From Cyanothece sp. BG0011 (lineage in GTDB: Bacteria; Cyanobacteriota; Cyanobacteriia; Cyanobacteriales; Microcystaceae), in assembly GCF_003013815.1 (NCBI RefSeq), contig NZ_PRLH01000049.1, forward strand, positions 1 to 54,038: 54,038 bases of DNA, read 5' to 3'. Shown here in pieces: positions 45,678 through 53,043 of the stretch. Both the position numbers and the translations under genes were made by a program. Under the pieces are notes generated by a model, which saw nothing but the letters and a program-made list of their open reading frames with translations, was not told the origin of the DNA and ran no database searches. Every line of letters begins with the position of its first letter. Positions within the stretch are counted from its first letter, which is position 1.

Positions 45678-46706
45678 ATGATGTTGCGTCGTTTCTTGAT
45701 TGTCCTCATAGGGTTAATTGTCCTTGCATTGGCTTTACCGGCTTTAACCCTTGATAATACTTCATCACAGAAAACCACCTTTGTGGCCTATGGTGATCTG
45801 CCTTATCGGGTGACTTTACCTGATGGTAGAACCGATGAAGACGTTCTTAAAGAAGATATTATACCTACTATTCAACAACGAGAAGATGTGGCCTTTGTGA
45901 TTCATGTCGGGGATCTCAGTCGTCCTGAATATGCGTGTCATGACGAGTTTCTCTACGAAGTTAAGGATCTTTGGGAAAACGAGATTCAAAAACCCGTTTT
46001 TTATACCCCAGGGGATAACGACTGGACCGACTGCGATCGCTCATATCTCCCCAACCCTCAAAGCGAGATAGAAAGACTCGCAGCCATTCGTCAGATATTC
46101 TTCAGTGAACCGAAATCCTTAGATCCTCAGTGGCAATATGAACAAAACAGCGATCTCCCTGAAGACGAACTTTGGATTTATAACGGCGTTCTCTTTGTCA
46201 CAGAACACATGGTGAGTACGGATAATGGTCGAGATGAGATTCTCATCGATGATCCTCAAACCGTTTTAGGGTTAGTTGAAAAACGAGATCAAGCCAATAA
46301 ACAATGGTTAGATCATGGGTTTGAAATAGCGAAAAGTAAGGAGATTAAAGCAGTTGTAATTGCCAGTCAGTTAGATCCTTTTGGTCCCGAAGATGGAGAA
46401 AATACTGCGTTTACTCGATGTACTAATAATGCCGCTTATAAAGGATTTTGTGAACAGGTGCAAACCTTTGCTATCAATGTAAAGAAACCCATGTTATTCG
46501 TTCATGGAGACACCAACGCCTATTGTTATGATCAACCCTTTGATGTAGAATTAGCCCCTAATATTTGGCGATTAAATGCCCCTGGAGACTTCAAATACAT
46601 TGATGCTTCTCTTATTACTTATGACCCGGCCAACCCAGAAAAACCGTTTGAGGTGACTGGGTTACTCTCAGGAGAATCTCCCCCAGATGTTTGTGACTAT
46701 AATTAA
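45678..46706 (+). CDS. Secreted or anchored metallophosphoesterase-like protein
   Basis: The 342-aa protein has an N-terminal hydrophobic segment (RFLIVLIGLIVLALALPAL, about 5-23) acting as a signal or anchor. Calcineurin-like motifs follow: D40 in AYGDLPY, D79 in HVGDLSRP, GDND at 112-115 and a later FVHGDTNAYCYD. Several paired cysteines suggest an extracytoplasmic place with disulfides. The substrate is unknown. The first ATG of an ATG-ATG pair is used. The glutaminase fusion gene starts 21-63 bp later, so the two may be co-transcribed. Confidence 0.75.
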   Translation: MMLRRFLIVLIGLIVLALALPALTLDNTSSQKTTFVAYGDLPYRVTLPDGRTDEDVLKEDIIPTIQQREDVAFVIHVGDLSRPEYACHDEFLYEVKDLWENEIQKPVFYTPGDNDWTDCDRSYLPNPQSEIERLAAIRQIFFSEPKSLDPQWQYEQNSDLPEDELWIYNGVLFVTEHMVSTDNGRDEILIDDPQTVLGLVEKRDQANKQWLDHGFEIAKSKEIKAVVIASQLDPFGPEDGENTAFTRCTNNAAYKGFCEQVQTFAINVKKPMLFVHGDTNAYCYDQPFDVELAPNIWRLNAPGDFKYIDASLITYDPANPEKPFEVTGLLSGESPPDVCDYN

Positions 46707-46769
46707 CCTAAAACAAAGACTTATAAGTTGATCACCCAAAGTCCTCAGATAATACAAACAATTAAATCC

Positions 46770-48629
46770 ATGAATCATATAAAACTTGATCACTTCAGTC
46801 AAGAAAATTCTCCTATTCTCACTTGTATTAAAGATATTTATGAACGCTATCAGCCTATCAATGACGGCAATGTAGCAACTTATATCCCAGAATTAGCTAA
46901 AGCGAACCCTGATCTTTTTGGCATTTGTATCACCACTCCCGATGGCCAAATTTATCAAGTGGGTGAGTCTCAAGATTGTTTTACCATTCAGTCCATTTCT
47001 AAACCCTTTGTCTATGGGTTAGCGTTAGCGGATCATGGAGTGGATAAAATCATGAGTAAAGTAGGGGTTGAACCCACCGGAGAAGCGTTTAACTCCATTG
47101 TCTTTGATGAAGAAAATAACCGTCCCTATAATCCGATGGTCAATGCAGGGGCGATCGCAACTACCGCTTTAGTTAAAGGGGACGGGTATGAACATCGATT
47201 TAACCGCATTTTAACCATGTTTGAAGGGTTCGCCGGCCGTTCTTTAACCGTCGATGAAGCGGTGTTTCAGTCCGAAAAGTCAACAGGCCACCGTAACCGG
47301 GCGATCGCCTATTTAGAGTTAAATGCAGGGATGTTAGAGGGCAACCTAGAGGAACATTTAGACCTCTATTTTCGCCAATGTTCTATCCTAGTAACGGCCC
47401 AAGATTTAGGGATTATGGCCGCCACGTTAGCCAATAATGGCATTAACCCTATCACAAAACAACAAGCGGTTAACCCAGAAGAAGTTCGCGCTATTCTCAG
47501 CGTCATGGCCAGTTGTGGAATGTATGATTTTTCGGGAGAATGGCTTTATCGCATCGGTTTACCAGCGAAAAGTGGAGTGGGAGGCGGTATTATTGCCGTT
47601 TTACCGGGTCAGTTTGGCATTGGAACTTTTTCCCCCCTTTTAGATCCTAGAGGAAATAGTGTGCGCGGGATTAAAGTTTGCGAGGAACTCTCCCAACGCT
47701 TCAAGTTTCATTTATTTGATAGTCATCCGGTGTCTCAAACCTGCGTTAGTCGCACCTATACCGGGGCGATGGTATCCTCAAAACGACAAAGACGAGGGTT
47801 ACAAAGGGATTTTTTAGACCAAGAAGGGGAGAAAATTTTAGTTTATGAACTGAAAGGGGATCTTTATTTTGCCACCCTAGAAAAGCTAACTCGTCAGTTA
47901 CAAAGTAATCAACAAACGGCTCAATTTATTATTCTAGATGGCCGCCGGGTGGGTAATGTTAATAGTAGCGCCATTACGTTACTATCAGAAATTAAACAAT
48001 GGGGTTTAAGTCAAGAAATTGCTTTGATGTTAACAGGATTTGAACATAAAACCATAGTACGTCTTCAAGACAATGGTTGGACAGATGAGATGTTTGTAGA
48101 CAATATTGATACGGCCTTAGAATGGTGTGAAAATTGTTTATTATCAGAACAGTATTACCAAGATATAACAGTTAAAGATAAGCTTTCATTAGAGGAGATG
48201 GATATTTTTAAAGCCTTTACTCCAGAAGAAATGACCGTACTTGCCCCTTTATTTTCTGAGGTTTCTTATCAAGCTAATGACTTTATTATTCGGGAAGGGG
48301 AAAAAAGCGATCGCCTATTTCTTTTAGCCAAAGGAATGGCAACGGTTTCTTTGCGACTGTCTCAAACCGAACAAAGAAAACGCTTAACCACTTATATTCC
48401 TGGGATTGCTTTTGGCGAATTAGCCCTTTTTGATATTAATGTCAGTCAAAGAACGGCTGATATTGTCGCAGATACGGAAGTCATTTGTTATGTTTTAGAA
48501 TTTGATAAGCTGAAAACTTTATTGAAGACAAAACCTGAAGTTTATATCAAGTTATTACAAACCTTTGGTAAAACCCTGGTTAATACTATTAAACGGGCAA
48601 CCTTAGAAATTCGTAGTTTATCAGTCTAA
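46770..48629 (+). CDS. glsA: Glutaminase A fused to a STAS domain and a cyclic-nucleotide-binding domain
   Basis: Numbering is from a TTG at 46728; I prefer the ATG at 46770 (residue 15, MNHIKLDHFS). Three domains follow in order. A complete serine-dependent glutaminase spans about 15-330, with S89xxK92 in FTIQSISKPF and NPMVNAGAI. A STAS-like domain spans about 370-465 (LVYELKGDLYFATL, RRVGNVNSSAITLL). A CNB domain spans about 490-633, with the phosphate cassette FGELALFDINVSQRTADIV keeping the Glu and Arg needed for cNMP binding. It should hydrolyse glutamine to glutamate and ammonia, perhaps gated by a cyclic nucleotide. A frameshifted nucleotide cyclase gene begins 1.3 kb downstream. Confidence 0.9.
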   Translation: MNHIKLDHFSQENSPILTCIKDIYERYQPINDGNVATYIPELAKANPDLFGICITTPDGQIYQVGESQDCFTIQSISKPFVYGLALADHGVDKIMSKVGVEPTGEAFNSIVFDEENNRPYNPMVNAGAIATTALVKGDGYEHRFNRILTMFEGFAGRSLTVDEAVFQSEKSTGHRNRAIAYLELNAGMLEGNLEEHLDLYFRQCSILVTAQDLGIMAATLANNGINPITKQQAVNPEEVRAILSVMASCGMYDFSGEWLYRIGLPAKSGVGGGIIAVLPGQFGIGTFSPLLDPRGNSVRGIKVCEELSQRFKFHLFDSHPVSQTCVSRTYTGAMVSSKRQRRGLQRDFLDQEGEKILVYELKGDLYFATLEKLTRQLQSNQQTAQFIILDGRRVGNVNSSAITLLSEIKQWGLSQEIALMLTGFEHKTIVRLQDNGWTDEMFVDNIDTALEWCENCLLSEQYYQDITVKDKLSLEEMDIFKAFTPEEMTVLAPLFSEVSYQANDFIIREGEKSDRLFLLAKGMATVSLRLSQTEQRKRLTTYIPGIAFGELALFDINVSQRTADIVADTEVICYVLEFDKLKTLLKTKPEVYIKLLQTFGKTLVNTIKRATLEIRSLSV

Positions 48630-48648
48630 TAATGATTGATTATAGTTG

Positions 48649-48676
48649 GTAGGGGCATAATATATTATGCCCCTAC
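48649..48676. repeat. 28-bp perfect palindrome GTAGGGGCATAATA and its complement
   Basis: The two 14-bp halves are exact complements, with no loop bases. It lies 20 bp after the glutaminase stop, so it may act as a terminator stem or be an insertion of a REP-like element. Related GTAGGGGC-type ends occur at 13580 and 33938. Confidence 0.75.
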
Positions 48677-48845
48677 ACCCTATTATATTAAGTCGAAAAG
48701 TTCTGTATAGGTTATAGTAATCCTTAAATCTAAAATAATAAATCAAATTAAAGTAGCGATTATAATCATCATAATTCTTCTAATCAAACCAACAATATTA
48801 ATCAAACCCTAAGTACCTGGACAAAAATAAACGTGACTGTCAAGT

Positions 48846-48924
48846 GAGCAGGGGAGCAGGGAGCAAAAGGAGCAGGGAGAGGTGCGACCCAAGGTGAGGT
48901 TCCCTCGCCATTGGAAAGCGCACC
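48846..48924. repeat. Degenerate heptamer tract joined to a GGTGCG/CGCACC hairpin
   Basis: Units like GAGCAGG repeat imperfectly from 48846 to about 48880. They run directly into GGTGCG (48881), which pairs with CGCACC (48919-48924). An inner pair, GGTGAGG and CCTCGCC, strengthens the stem. Confidence 0.65.
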
Positions 48925-49158
48925 TTAAGGGGTGACAGCTTGTTTATATTTCTTCTCTACAGTTGATTATATTTATGTCCGACTACTTACCTAAGTTAGA
49001 AACAACGTCTCGACTGAATGTGCTACTAAAAAAATAAGCTACTTTCATGATTTATCTGATTTAGAGTTACGTCAACTCATTGAGGTAGGATATTGAATTT
49101 TTGTTAAAAAAATTGACTTTTAAAAGAAACCTACTTATCTTATAGGGAGTCATTATAA

Positions 49159-49917
49159 TTGTTAAATATGAAAAAAAAATCAACGTTAACCTCTTCAAAA
49201 AAACTTAGTTTACTCCTATCTGTGATAAATTTAGGGGTTTTGTCTCCTTTATTACCGGTTTTATCTTCTCCTTTATTCAATGAGGTTATGATTAGTTTAG
49301 AATTTCCTGATACGGGGAATCGAGGCGCGCCGAAAAAAAGTGCAGGGGGAGGAACCCGAAGCGATGATCAAAATTGTTTAACCAATGAAGAAAATGAACC
49401 CCCTTTAGTCGCTTTGATGCCTAACCGAGAAAATAAGGCAAAAACAGCCAGCGATACCCCCACTTTTTATGGTTATATCCCCACCACCAACGCCACAGAA
49501 GGGGAATTTGTTTTAGTCGATGCTGATGGTAACGAAGTGTATTATACACAGTTTGATTTACCCTCAACCCCAGGCATTATTACATTAGAAATTCCTCAAA
49601 CAGTGGCTTTAAAACCGGGCAATTACACATGGTCATTGATGGTTATTTGTGATTCTCGTTATCGAAATCGAGATAAATATGTAGAGGGTTCTTTAGAATA
49701 TGTTGTCCTTACCGAAGACTTAGAAAATCAAATAAAAGATAAACCGTCCCTAGAAAAAGCCCAAGTTTACGCTGAGGAAAGTCTCTGGTTAGAAACCCTC
49801 GATACGGTAGCCAAAATCAAACAAGAAAACCCTCAAGAATGGCAGCAACTGTTAACTTCTGTGGGGTTAGAAATGTTAACAGAAATCCCCGTAGTTGAAA
49901 CAGTTAACCGTGACTGA
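49159..49917 (+). CDS. Secreted DUF928 protein
   Basis: This 252-aa protein has a basic start and hydrophobic stretch (about 14-38) ending in VLSS, a probable signal peptide. The DUF928 body follows: GNRGAPKKSAGGGTRS, CLTNEENEPPLVALMPNRE, TPTFYGYIPTT, GNYTWSLMVICDSRYRNRDKYVEG and SLWLETLDTVAKIKQ. DUF928 proteins are common in cyanobacteria, often next to CHASE2 cyclases or CHAT proteases. The TTG at 49159 is well spaced from GGGAG at 49145; the ATG at 49168 is an alternative. The cyclase gene starts 51 bp later. Confidence 0.87.
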   Translation: MLNMKKKSTLTSSKKLSLLLSVINLGVLSPLLPVLSSPLFNEVMISLEFPDTGNRGAPKKSAGGGTRSDDQNCLTNEENEPPLVALMPNRENKAKTASDTPTFYGYIPTTNATEGEFVLVDADGNEVYYTQFDLPSTPGIITLEIPQTVALKPGNYTWSLMVICDSRYRNRDKYVEGSLEYVVLTEDLENQIKDKPSLEKAQVYAEESLWLETLDTVAKIKQENPQEWQQLLTSVGLEMLTEIPVVETVNRD

Positions 49918-49968
49918 AAATCGGTAACTATTTTAAAATAAGCTAACAATTATCACATCAGTTTCAAT

Positions 49969-52211
49969 ATGTGGGAAGGGTTAAAACATTTTTTCTGGCA
50001 AACCCGTGGGGTGTGGGTGACAACGCCAACGGTGGCAGGGTTCGTGATACTATTGCGTTTCGCAGGGGTATTACAAGGATGGGAATGGGACCTATTTGAT
50101 TTTTACATGAAATCTCGTCCCCCCGAACCGAATGACCCTCGCATCGCCATTGTCGGTATTAATGAAAATGACTTACATCGACGCAATGAGTCCATTATTA
50201 GCGATGAAGTGTTAGGGAAATTACTCAATAAATTAAAAACCCAAAACCCTCGTGCCATTGGCTTAGATATCTATCGAGACTTACCCGTACCCCCAGGCCA
50301 TGAAACGTTAATGCAAGTATTCGAGACAACCCCTAATCTTGTGGGTATCCAAAAAGTAGCCGGGGAAGTGGGATGGGAAACCGTGGCACCGCCTCCTATT
50401 TTAAAAGAAAAGGGTCAAGTGGGGGCCAATGACCTAATTTTTGATGGCGATAACCGAGTGAGACGGGGGTTAATTTCCTTAGATACTCAAGAAGGGGAAA
50501 CCGTCTATAGTTTTAGTCTGCATCTGGCCTTACATTACCTTAATAAAGAAGGGATCGGCCCAGAAATGATAGAAGGAAGTGAGCAATGGAAACTGGGAAA
50601 AACCCTTTTTTCTCCCCTCACCCCAACGATGGAGGTTATGTTCGCACGGATGCAGGGGGTTATCAACTGTTGATTAATTATCGGGGAGGGAATGGCACCT
50701 TTGAAACTGTTTCAATGACCGATATTCTGGAAAATAAAGTGCCATCGGACTGGGCCAGCGATCGCATTATTATTATTGGTAAAGTGGGCGAAAGTTTTAA
50801 AGACCTCTTTTTTACCCCCTATAGTAGCGGTTTAATCGGCCTACCGGAACCCGTGGCCGGGGCCGAAATTCACGCTAATTTAGTCAGTCAAATCATTAGT
50901 GGGGCCTTAGAGGGTCGTCCTTTATTTAAAACTTGGCCAGACCCCGTAGAATGGCTGTGGATCGTCTTTTGGGCAGGAACGGGGGCCACCCTAACCTGGA
51001 GGTTTCGCTACCAGCAAGGGGCAAAAAACGCCTCCCTGAAGCGATGGGGAATCATTGTCGGGGCCGGCGTTATTTTAATGGGTAGTACCTATCTGGCCTT
51101 CCTTGAGGGGTGGTGGCTTCCCGTTGTTCCGCCCTTTTTGGCCTTTTTGGGGTCAACCATGGCCATCACTGCTTATATTGCCCGTACGGCGGCCGATATT
51201 CGTAAAACCTTTGGTCGTTATTTAACGGATCAAGTGGTGGCCAATTTATTAGAAAATCCTGCCGGTTTATCATTAGGAGGACAACGAAAAAAGATTACTA
51301 TTTTGACTTCAGATTTGCGAGGATTTACGGCAACCTCTGAACGATTACCCCCTGAAGAAGTGGTCAAAATTCTTAACTTTTATTTAGGGAAAATGGCTGA
51401 TGTGATTACAGACTATGAGGGGACAATTGATGAGTTTATGGGGGATGGTATTTTAGTGTTATTTGGGGCGCCCACTTCAAAAAAAAATGATGCAGAGAGA
51501 GCGATCGCTTGTGGGGTTGCTATGCAGTTAGCCATGAAATCCGTTAACGAACAGATGAAACAATGGGAATTACCAGTTTTAGAGATGGGAATTGGTATTA
51601 ATACAGGGGAGGTAGTTGTCGGTAATATTGGCTCGGAAAAACGGACAAAATACGGGGTGGTGGGGTCTCAAGTTAATTTAACCTATCGCGTAGAATCTTA
51701 TACCCTCGGCGGACAAATTTTAATCTCTGAGGCCACGTTAAAAGAAGCAGAATCAATCATTGTTATTGAATCAGAAAAACAAGTAACACCCAAAGGGGTT
51801 AAAGAACCCATTTCTATTTATGAAGTTGGGGGAATTCAGGGAAATTTTAATTTATTTTTAGAGAAAAAAACAGAAATTTTACTTAAAATTCCTCAGCCTT
51901 TATTGCTTGAATACAGTATCTTAGACGGAAAAAATATTGCAGACAATAAATATCAAGGCCAGTTGATAGAATTATCAGAAAATGGGGGAATAATTAATTA
52001 TAATCATAATGATCCTCAAGGGTTTATTTCAGGAATGACTAATATTAAGTGTAATTTATTAAGTACAGAGACCTCCCAATCAGTTAGTGAGGATATTTAT
52101 GCTAAAGTTTTAGAGCAATCTAATAATAATGGAGGGTTTTATATTCGTTTTACTGCTAAACCCCCTCAAGTGACTAAACAACTAGAAGAACTTTATCAAA
52201 GTCTTGTTTAA
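49969..52211 (+). pseudogene. cya2: CHASE2-class III nucleotide cyclase (Cya2-like), frameshifted
   Basis: Two frames, 49969-50673 and 50586-52211, are one gene split by a single-base shift near 50614-50624. The text runs LFSPLTP in one frame and PNDGGYVRTDAGGY in the other. One extra C in a CCCC run restores about 747 aa. The order is a membrane helix, CHASE2 sensor, two or three membrane helices (about 330-400), and the cyclase (TSDLRGFT, DEFMGDGI, KYGVVGSQVNLTYR). A C-terminal PilZ-like segment (GQLIELSENGGII) follows. Both metal Asp and the catalytic Asn/Arg remain. E at the first purine position and G at the second fit guanylate rather than adenylate cyclase. Confidence 0.85.
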
Positions 52212-52275: not shown

Positions 52276-53043
52276 ATGGCTCACTTACTTTTTTTAGGTT
52301 CAGGTTCAGCATTTACCGTCGGGGGTGATAATTTTCATTCTAATATGTTTCTCATTACTGAAACAGGGAAAAAATTATTAATAGATTGTGGTTCTGATCT
52401 TCGTTTTTCTTTGTATAAAGAAGGATTTTCTCATCGAGATATTACCGATATTTATATTAGTCACTTACATTCTGATCATGCTGGAGGGTTAGAATATGTA
52501 GGATTAACCACTAAATTTGATCCCCAATGTGATCAACCGAATTTATATTTAAGTTATGAGATTGCCACTGAGATTTGGGAGCATACCCTATCAGGAGGAA
52601 TGGGATCAGTCGAAGGAGAAATTACCAATTTAGAGAGCTTTTTTAATGTACATTCTATTGATAATAACCGACATTTTGTTTGGGAAACGATTAACTTTGA
52701 ATTAGTAAAAACTATTCATATTAATAACGGAACCTATGTAATGCCAAGCTATGGATTATTTTTTTCAGTTAATAATCAGAAAATTTTTATCACAAGTGAT
52801 ACTCAATTATGTTACGAAAAATTACAGAAATATTATCAAGAAGCAGATATAATTTTTCATGATTGTGAAATCTCAAAGTATCCTACCCCCGTTCATTCTC
52901 ATTATCAACAATTAGTGAAGTTACCTGATAATATTAAACAAAAAATATGGTTATATGGTTATCAACCCAGAGAACTTCCTAATGCAAAAGCAGATGGATT
53001 TTTAGGTTTTGTTAAAAGAGGTGATCAATTTTTAATTAATTAA
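52276..53043 (+). CDS. MBL-fold metallo-hydrolase (RNase Z/AHL-lactonase-like)
   Basis: This 255-aa protein has the metallo-beta-lactamase motif SHLHSDHAGG (H63, H65, D67, H68). The first strand segment is FLGSGSAFTVGG with LLIDCGSDLRFSL, and the later metal or strand residues are TIHINN, ITSDTQ and IIFHDCE. The layout resembles RNase Z or small hydrolases, but the domain is shorter than full RNase Z and its substrate is unknown. There is no signal peptide. The gene lies 64 bp after the cyclase and before a gene remnant. Confidence 0.82.
   Translation: MAHLLFLGSGSAFTVGGDNFHSNMFLITETGKKLLIDCGSDLRFSLYKEGFSHRDITDIYISHLHSDHAGGLEYVGLTTKFDPQCDQPNLYLSYEIATEIWEHTLSGGMGSVEGEITNLESFFNVHSIDNNRHFVWETINFELVKTIHINNGTYVMPSYGLFFSVNNQKIFITSDTQLCYEKLQKYYQEADIIFHDCEISKYPTPVHSHYQQLVKLPDNIKQKIWLYGYQPRELPNAKADGFLGFVKRGDQFLIN

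Follow-up and report, generated by a model that had tools for sequence, protein, structure and literature searches.

The closest described counterpart of the cyclase considered here is Cya2 (Sll0646) of Synechocystis PCC 6803, a CHASE2-regulated guanylate cyclase that produces cyclic GMP (cGMP) and is converted to an adenylate cyclase by the exchange E488K (PMC5995499, PMC4284465; here and below we draw on parts of the cited texts). A 2014 review names one known cyanobacterial cGMP phosphodiesterase, Slr2100 (PMC4284465), and according to a 2023 review few bacterial cGMP targets have been identified (PMC10117731). Apyc1 is a class II phosphodiesterase of relaxed specificity, the related YhfI favours cyclic AMP (cAMP) and cGMP, and a host function for Apyc1 relatives has been raised as a possibility (PMC9117128). 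We have analysed a stretch of 54,038 nucleotides from Cyanothece sp. BG0011, contig C100 of the 5.6-Mb genome (the window). From sequence comparison, we suggest, with a probability of roughly 0.75, that the core of the locus is a cGMP turnover cassette consisting of a DUF928 protein, a CHASE2-guanylate cyclase of the Cya2 type and an Apyc1-like metallo-β-lactamase (MBL) acting as phosphodiesterase. An earlier, sequence-only reading of the window had paired the cyclase with a nearby glutaminase fusion; to this we add a frameshift in the cyclase and the MBL gene at 52276-53043.

The window cyclase contains the motifs DEFMGDG and KYGVVG, and in alignment with PDB sequences the two residues that select the base are E and G, as the sequence-only reading had stated. 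Cya2 (2w01) has the same pair, whereas CyaB (3r5g) and CyaC (1wc1) have K and T (E/G and K/T hereafter). Both metal-binding Asp residues are retained, as are the Asn and the Arg, and the catalytic domain is identical to that of Cya2 at 134/196 positions (68%), compared to 77/182 for CyaB and 63/181 for CyaC. Because the E/G pair is that of Cya2, the identity is 68%, and E488K switches Cya2, we strongly expect intact cyclases of this type to use GTP, and the guanylate-type assignment made earlier is thus supported by the sequence. The window copy itself has a broken frame, with a deletion of one base compared to three Crocosphaera metagenome-assembled genomes (MAGs), the closest named relatives as judged by their MBL (84, 81, and 77% identity), where the frame stays open and the CHASE2 and catalytic domains form a single chain. 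In the window, the chain is split over two overlapping frames of the + strand: an N-terminal half ended by the frameshift (49969..50673; PF05226 positions 2-148) and a C-terminal half with the remaining CHASE2 segment (PF05226 156-256) and the class III cyclase domain of the guanylate type (50586..52211; PF00211). The deletion is either genuine or an artefact of the assembly. Broken copies are found elsewhere, six with stops among the matches listed and one (genome G030) spread over two frames. Programmed frameshifting was set aside, as in the three relatives the additional base is present and the frame is open.

The recurrent partner of the cyclase is the MBL gene, not the glutaminase. Among 148 genomes drawn from the order (cut-offs of 1e-60 for the cyclase, 1e-60 for the glutaminase, and 1e-20 for the MBL), a cyclase match is present in 95 genomes, a glutaminase of any kind in 48, and the MBL in 35. 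We aligned 106 cyclase open reading frames (ORFs), comprising the window's, two more from its own genome and, for the rest, part of the matches listed; 75 are E/G, 30 are of other types, and one is truncated. An MBL gene lies downstream on the same strand within 150 bp of 31 of the 75 E/G cyclases but of none of the 30 others (Fisher 3e-6); the truncated cyclase likewise has an MBL after it. A DUF928 gene is found less than 600 bp upstream of 49/75 E/G cyclases, some loci being too short to tell. Viewed from the MBL side, 37 matches less the window's own and a fragment (G027) give 35 loci, 31 of which have a cyclase within 500 bp, compared to one of 29 control windows (placed by hand at round coordinates, not randomly drawn) that holds a cyclase anywhere (Fisher 2e-12). 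A phylum-wide draw of 386 genomes has the MBL in 17. Eight of these loci fall outside the order draw: four have an E/G cyclase directly upstream, two lack one, and two distant members also lack one; a pair of the eight, one with and one without the cyclase, appear identical to loci of the named set described below (L290 and L293), which leaves three of six. On a quick cyclase tree, 2w01 groups with two MBL-carrying genomes. A Synechocystis-like genus, which we infer to be Synechocystis, has a Cya2 relative in all five of its genomes (97, 96, 96, 76, and 70% identity), in every case followed by the MBL, and by analogy we expect an MBL gene after cya2 in PCC 6803.

The MBL gene (52276..53043, + strand) encodes a protein that matches PF23023 (Anti-Pycsar Apyc1) with 86.4 bits against a cut-off of 50, and its top PDB matches are Apyc1 structures (7u2r, 7u2s, 7t28), spanning most of its length. 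The AlphaFold2 model has a mean predicted local distance difference test score (pLDDT) of 85.5 and a predicted template modelling score (pTM) of 0.87. Atypical class II enzymes are marked by a [T/S]HxHxDH motif (PMC9293780), which in the window MBL reads SHLHSDH. SHxHxDH, H148, D175, and H207 show no variation in 26/26 aligned MBLs, and the HxHxDH, H148, D175, and H207 columns are retained in 80/80 of the named loci. The Apyc1 metal-ligand set is kept at HxHxDH, H148, and D175, while the last His, at what we take from comparison with RNase Z to be the final ligand position, is Gly in the window protein; for this reason we file it as Apyc1-like. At that position, the named loci have His (51), Gly (19), or Asp (10). 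We conclude that the protein is probably a class II cyclic-nucleotide phosphodiesterase. It is improbable that the gene encodes an RNase Z or other hydrolase whose position is accidental: a partial match to the RNase Z NCBIfam equivalog exists, but its 58 bits fall far under the cut-off of 293, and the MBL is linked to cyclases both in and outside cyanobacteria. Relatives of the window MBL are also encoded in 37 Bacillus phage records, with about 29-32% identity among the 20 listed.

The linkage extends to other phyla, as seen in the named loci, which are the best 80 of 211 relatives of the MBL. This set overlaps the unnamed draws (for example, L278 and G121, L283 and G052), and many of its members are MAGs, so that some hosts may be misnamed; L300, labelled as a Chloroflexaceae MAG, is counted as cyanobacterial since it appears to be the same record as G010. 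A class III cyclase lies within 500 bp at 42 of the 80 loci, a gene for a cyclic-nucleotide-binding (CNB) domain within 600 bp at 23, and either at 53. For the 58 non-cyanobacterial loci among them, the corresponding numbers are 25, 17, and 36, and the 25 cyclases divide into K/T (10), K/D (7), E/G (6), D/A (1), and R/T (1). Thus, the MBL family accompanies class III cyclases generally, and E/G ones in cyanobacteria.

CNB proteins are the third recurring component. A CNB gene is found near the MBL at 14/35 cyanobacterial loci against 3/92 pooled controls (pooled Fisher 6e-7). The windows counted around each MBL span 12.7 kb at most, apart from one of 15.8 kb, and those of the cyclase controls are shorter, at about 9 kb. 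The controls split into 1/29 control windows, 2/35 E/G cyclases lacking the MBL, and 0/28 other cyclases; nine E/G loci (including L010) and two other cyclases were excluded for short flanks. Pfam analysis of nine of the 14 neighbours identifies each of them as an MscS channel carrying a CNB tail; the remaining five comprise two that resemble MscS-CNB, two short CNB proteins of the kind at L278, and one fragment. Other CNB neighbours run on Pfam include a patatin-like phospholipase, an ABC transporter, Crp-like regulators, a kinase, a CAAX protease, and, at a distance of 4 kb, a SulP transporter; one neighbour (L321) is a SulP-STAS-CNB protein. In the Crocosphaera relative MO_188.B44, the MscS-CNB gene directly follows the MBL (L275 6771-8255, +); in another Crocosphaera locus, it lies just upstream of DUF928 (L276 858-2387, +), the place taken by the glutaminase in the window. 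A similar protein of 493 residues is encoded on another contig of the window's own genome (L197 439-1920, +). Two MBL copies without a cyclase (L162 and L163) still adjoin an MscS-CNB gene.

We suggest the following scheme. The membrane CHASE2 domain would sense an outside signal and drive cGMP synthesis by the cyclase, an activity predicted from its residues and its identity to Cya2. The MBL enzyme, to judge from its family and linkage, would hydrolyse the cGMP, and the signal is likely to be read by the CNB protein that many relatives have beside the set, often a CNB-tailed MscS channel. In the window lineage, the upstream place is held by a glutaminase-STAS-CNB protein and, because MscS-CNB holds the same place in L276, the glutaminase may be an alternative output.

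A number of observations weigh against the turnover cassette. The window cyclase may be dead. No MBL was found downstream of 44/75 E/G cyclases, although at one of these (G002) the contig ends 580 bp past the cyclase. The MBL label changes nine times on the quick cyclase tree and the E/G label three times, and an independent-pairs test is not significant, so that the Fisher values given above overstate independence. At 27 of the best 80 of 211 MBL loci, there is no cyclase within 500 bp and no CNB gene within 600 bp. The non-cyanobacterial partners are mostly K/T or K/D (17/25), and the family as a whole is therefore not confined to cGMP. L010, an E/G cyclase without the MBL that was among the excluded controls, has an MscS-CNB neighbour. 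Finally, the last Apyc1 metal His is Gly in 26, His in eight, and Asn in one of the 35 cyanobacterial loci, and one of the 35 deviates at three other metal-ligand columns; with Gly for the last His, the activity of the MBL may differ from that of Apyc1.

The glutaminase gene (46770..48629, + strand; 46770 is an ATG, and the ORF listing begins at a TTG at 46728) encodes in one ORF a glutaminase (PF04960, 408 bits), a STAS domain (PF01740, 33 bits), and a CNB domain (PF00027, 58 bits; 48261..48530, +; phosphate cassette FGELALFDINVSQRTAD). The cassette of the fusion, FGELALFDINVSQRTADIVAD, retains its Glu and Arg and has Thr after the Arg (QRTA), so the fusion is as the sequence-only reading described it. 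The spacing of about 1.3 kb given there also holds: 1.34 kb separate the glutaminase stop (48629) from the CHASE2-cyclase start (49969), with the DUF928 gene (49159..49917, +; PF06051) in between, and the fusion, DUF928, both cyclase halves, and the MBL are all on the + strand. The interval 48500-50100 has no terminator-like sites and 10 promoter-like sites, compared to 5.0 in shuffles, which bears neither way on read-through from the glutaminase. A 342-residue ORF upstream of the glutaminase (45678-46706) has no Pfam match.

It had been proposed that cGMP from the nearby cyclase gates this glutaminase through its CNB domain. We regard this circuit as unlikely, even though the genes are adjacent in the window and in MO_188.B44 (where the fusion beside the cassette is 88% identical), CNB genes are enriched beside the cassette, MscS-CNB in the same upstream place at L276 makes the outputs look interchangeable, and the cassette Glu and Arg are retained. 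MO_188.B44 also has its MscS-CNB straight after the MBL, the window cyclase is frameshifted, and the fusion was not found in the two other Crocosphaera relatives with the cyclase set (both MAGs of uncertain completeness); the fusion adjoins the cyclase-MBL set only in the window and one Crocosphaera relative. Within the order draw, the full fusion is present in 2/148 genomes, the window's own and G117, compared to 95/148 for the cyclase. In G117, 2.5 Mb of the contig, or 1.7 Mb if it is circular, lie between fusion and cyclase, and we therefore rejected the pairing as conserved synteny in this draw. The proposal had also leaned on the cassette Thr. A Thr after the cassette Arg is a PKG-like mark of cGMP. 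Of 49 cassettes matching the R-x-A pattern, however, 34 have Thr at this position, 12 have Ser, and A, M, and N occur once each (the underlying loci overlap, and some proteins are counted twice). As the commonest residue, and one also seen in CNB domains beside K/T cyclases, Thr is uninformative and we have rejected it as a mark of cGMP; the G117 fusion, the nearest outside the Crocosphaera relatives, has Tyr in its place. Arg-Ser is the pair found in Clr, a protein responsive to both ligands (PMC10127613).

A glutaminase gated by cAMP (or by both nucleotides), whose closeness to a guanylate-type cyclase is incidental, is a better contender, and one to which we give somewhat less than even odds. 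Another cyanobacterial family (f41) has the fusion in 21 genomes, 11 of which have a class III cyclase match no more than 11 kb away; fusion and cyclase are 122 bp apart, match to match, in G367, and in G531 a K/T CHASE2 cyclase begins 13 bp past the fusion's stop. None of the f41 cyclases classified (from sets of 22 and 30 loci) is E/G, with 20 of 50 matches left unclassified, and the window's own genome also encodes two K/T cyclases. The co-occurrence with a Cya2-like cyclase that the sequence-only reading had put up as a check fails in the order draw; in f41, the fusion does lie near class III cyclases, but near none of the guanylate type among those classified. Against a cAMP-gated enzyme, the 11 cases come from four genera, in 10/21 f41 genomes the contig bearing the fusion lacks a cyclase match within 300 kb, and G539 is without a match to class III cyclases anywhere. 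Most of the f41 fusion cassettes examined read Arg-Thr-Ala and, as these fusions occur with cyclases that are not E/G, this cassette also accompanies adenylate-type cyclases. Taken together, a cyclic-nucleotide-gated glutaminase is plausible on these sequences, whereas its specificity for cGMP is unsupported.

The window's own genome also has a 665-residue frame with two tandem glutaminase domains, 50 and 54% identical to that of the window (L166 8920-10914, +; G000:C36), and a similar 665-residue frame is found in Crocosphaera G568. Tails of the STAS or STAS-CNB kind, resembling the one in the fusion, also match cyanobacterial proteins of about 750 residues with no glutaminase match (L183, L185, L187, L189, and similar). 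The STAS-CNB tail of the glutaminase may have been swapped in from a transporter.

For the missing parts of cGMP signalling, the turnover cassette supplies a candidate hydrolase, which recurs after Cya2-type cyclases, and a candidate CNB channel, in a genus that includes a laboratory model; the linkage moreover hints at a role in the host for relatives of Apyc1. More tentatively, and in our view with the odds against it, the cassette could be a portable one shared by several phyla, in which a class III cyclase and an Apyc1-type phosphodiesterase are combined with an interchangeable CNB output. The cyanobacterial version, Cya2 included, would run on cGMP, phage Apyc1 might derive from its hydrolase, and the Crocosphaera glutaminase output would tie glutamine breakdown to cGMP. 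A full-text literature search, limited in its collection and terms, returned no description of a cyclase-Apyc1 cassette or of a cGMP-gated glutaminase.

Among known systems, Pycsar also combines a class III cyclase with a cyclic-nucleotide-binding output, and a defence system resembling Pycsar, with an Apyc1 that keeps it in check, would account for the PADLOC PycC models that match the cyclase, the PycTIR models that match CNB domains, and the match of the MBL to the Anti-Pycsar Pfam family. We consider this very unlikely: in the six proteins scanned, the PADLOC effector matches are limited to the CNB part and the MBL has no PADLOC match, while the guanylate-type residues and the identity to Cya2 indicate GTP. 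Returning to the cGMP turnover cassette, bacterial cyclic-nucleotide-gated channels resemble the gene beside the MBL of relatives in having MscS and CNB domains, but the similar gene of the window genome is on another contig. The atypical class II phosphodiesterases (Rv1339, YhfI, and C. glutamicum CpdA) share the [T/S]HxHxDH motif (PMC9293780), yet the window MBL matches NCBIfam NF041851 weakly, at 30 bits, far under the 400-bit cut-off. Apyc1 itself (from phages SBSphiJ and Bsp38 and from Paenibacillus) matches most of the window protein and shares HxHxDH and most further metal ligands; the window MBL differs in being chromosomal and beside a cyclase, in the Gly that replaces the last metal His in most cyanobacterial members, and in that its substrate is predicted. 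Cya2 differs from the window cyclase in that the latter is frameshifted, and an MBL partner is not named for Cya2 in the portions of the literature consulted; the two have in common the CHASE2 and guanylyl cyclase domains, the E/G pair, and a catalytic domain that is two-thirds identical (PMC5995499).

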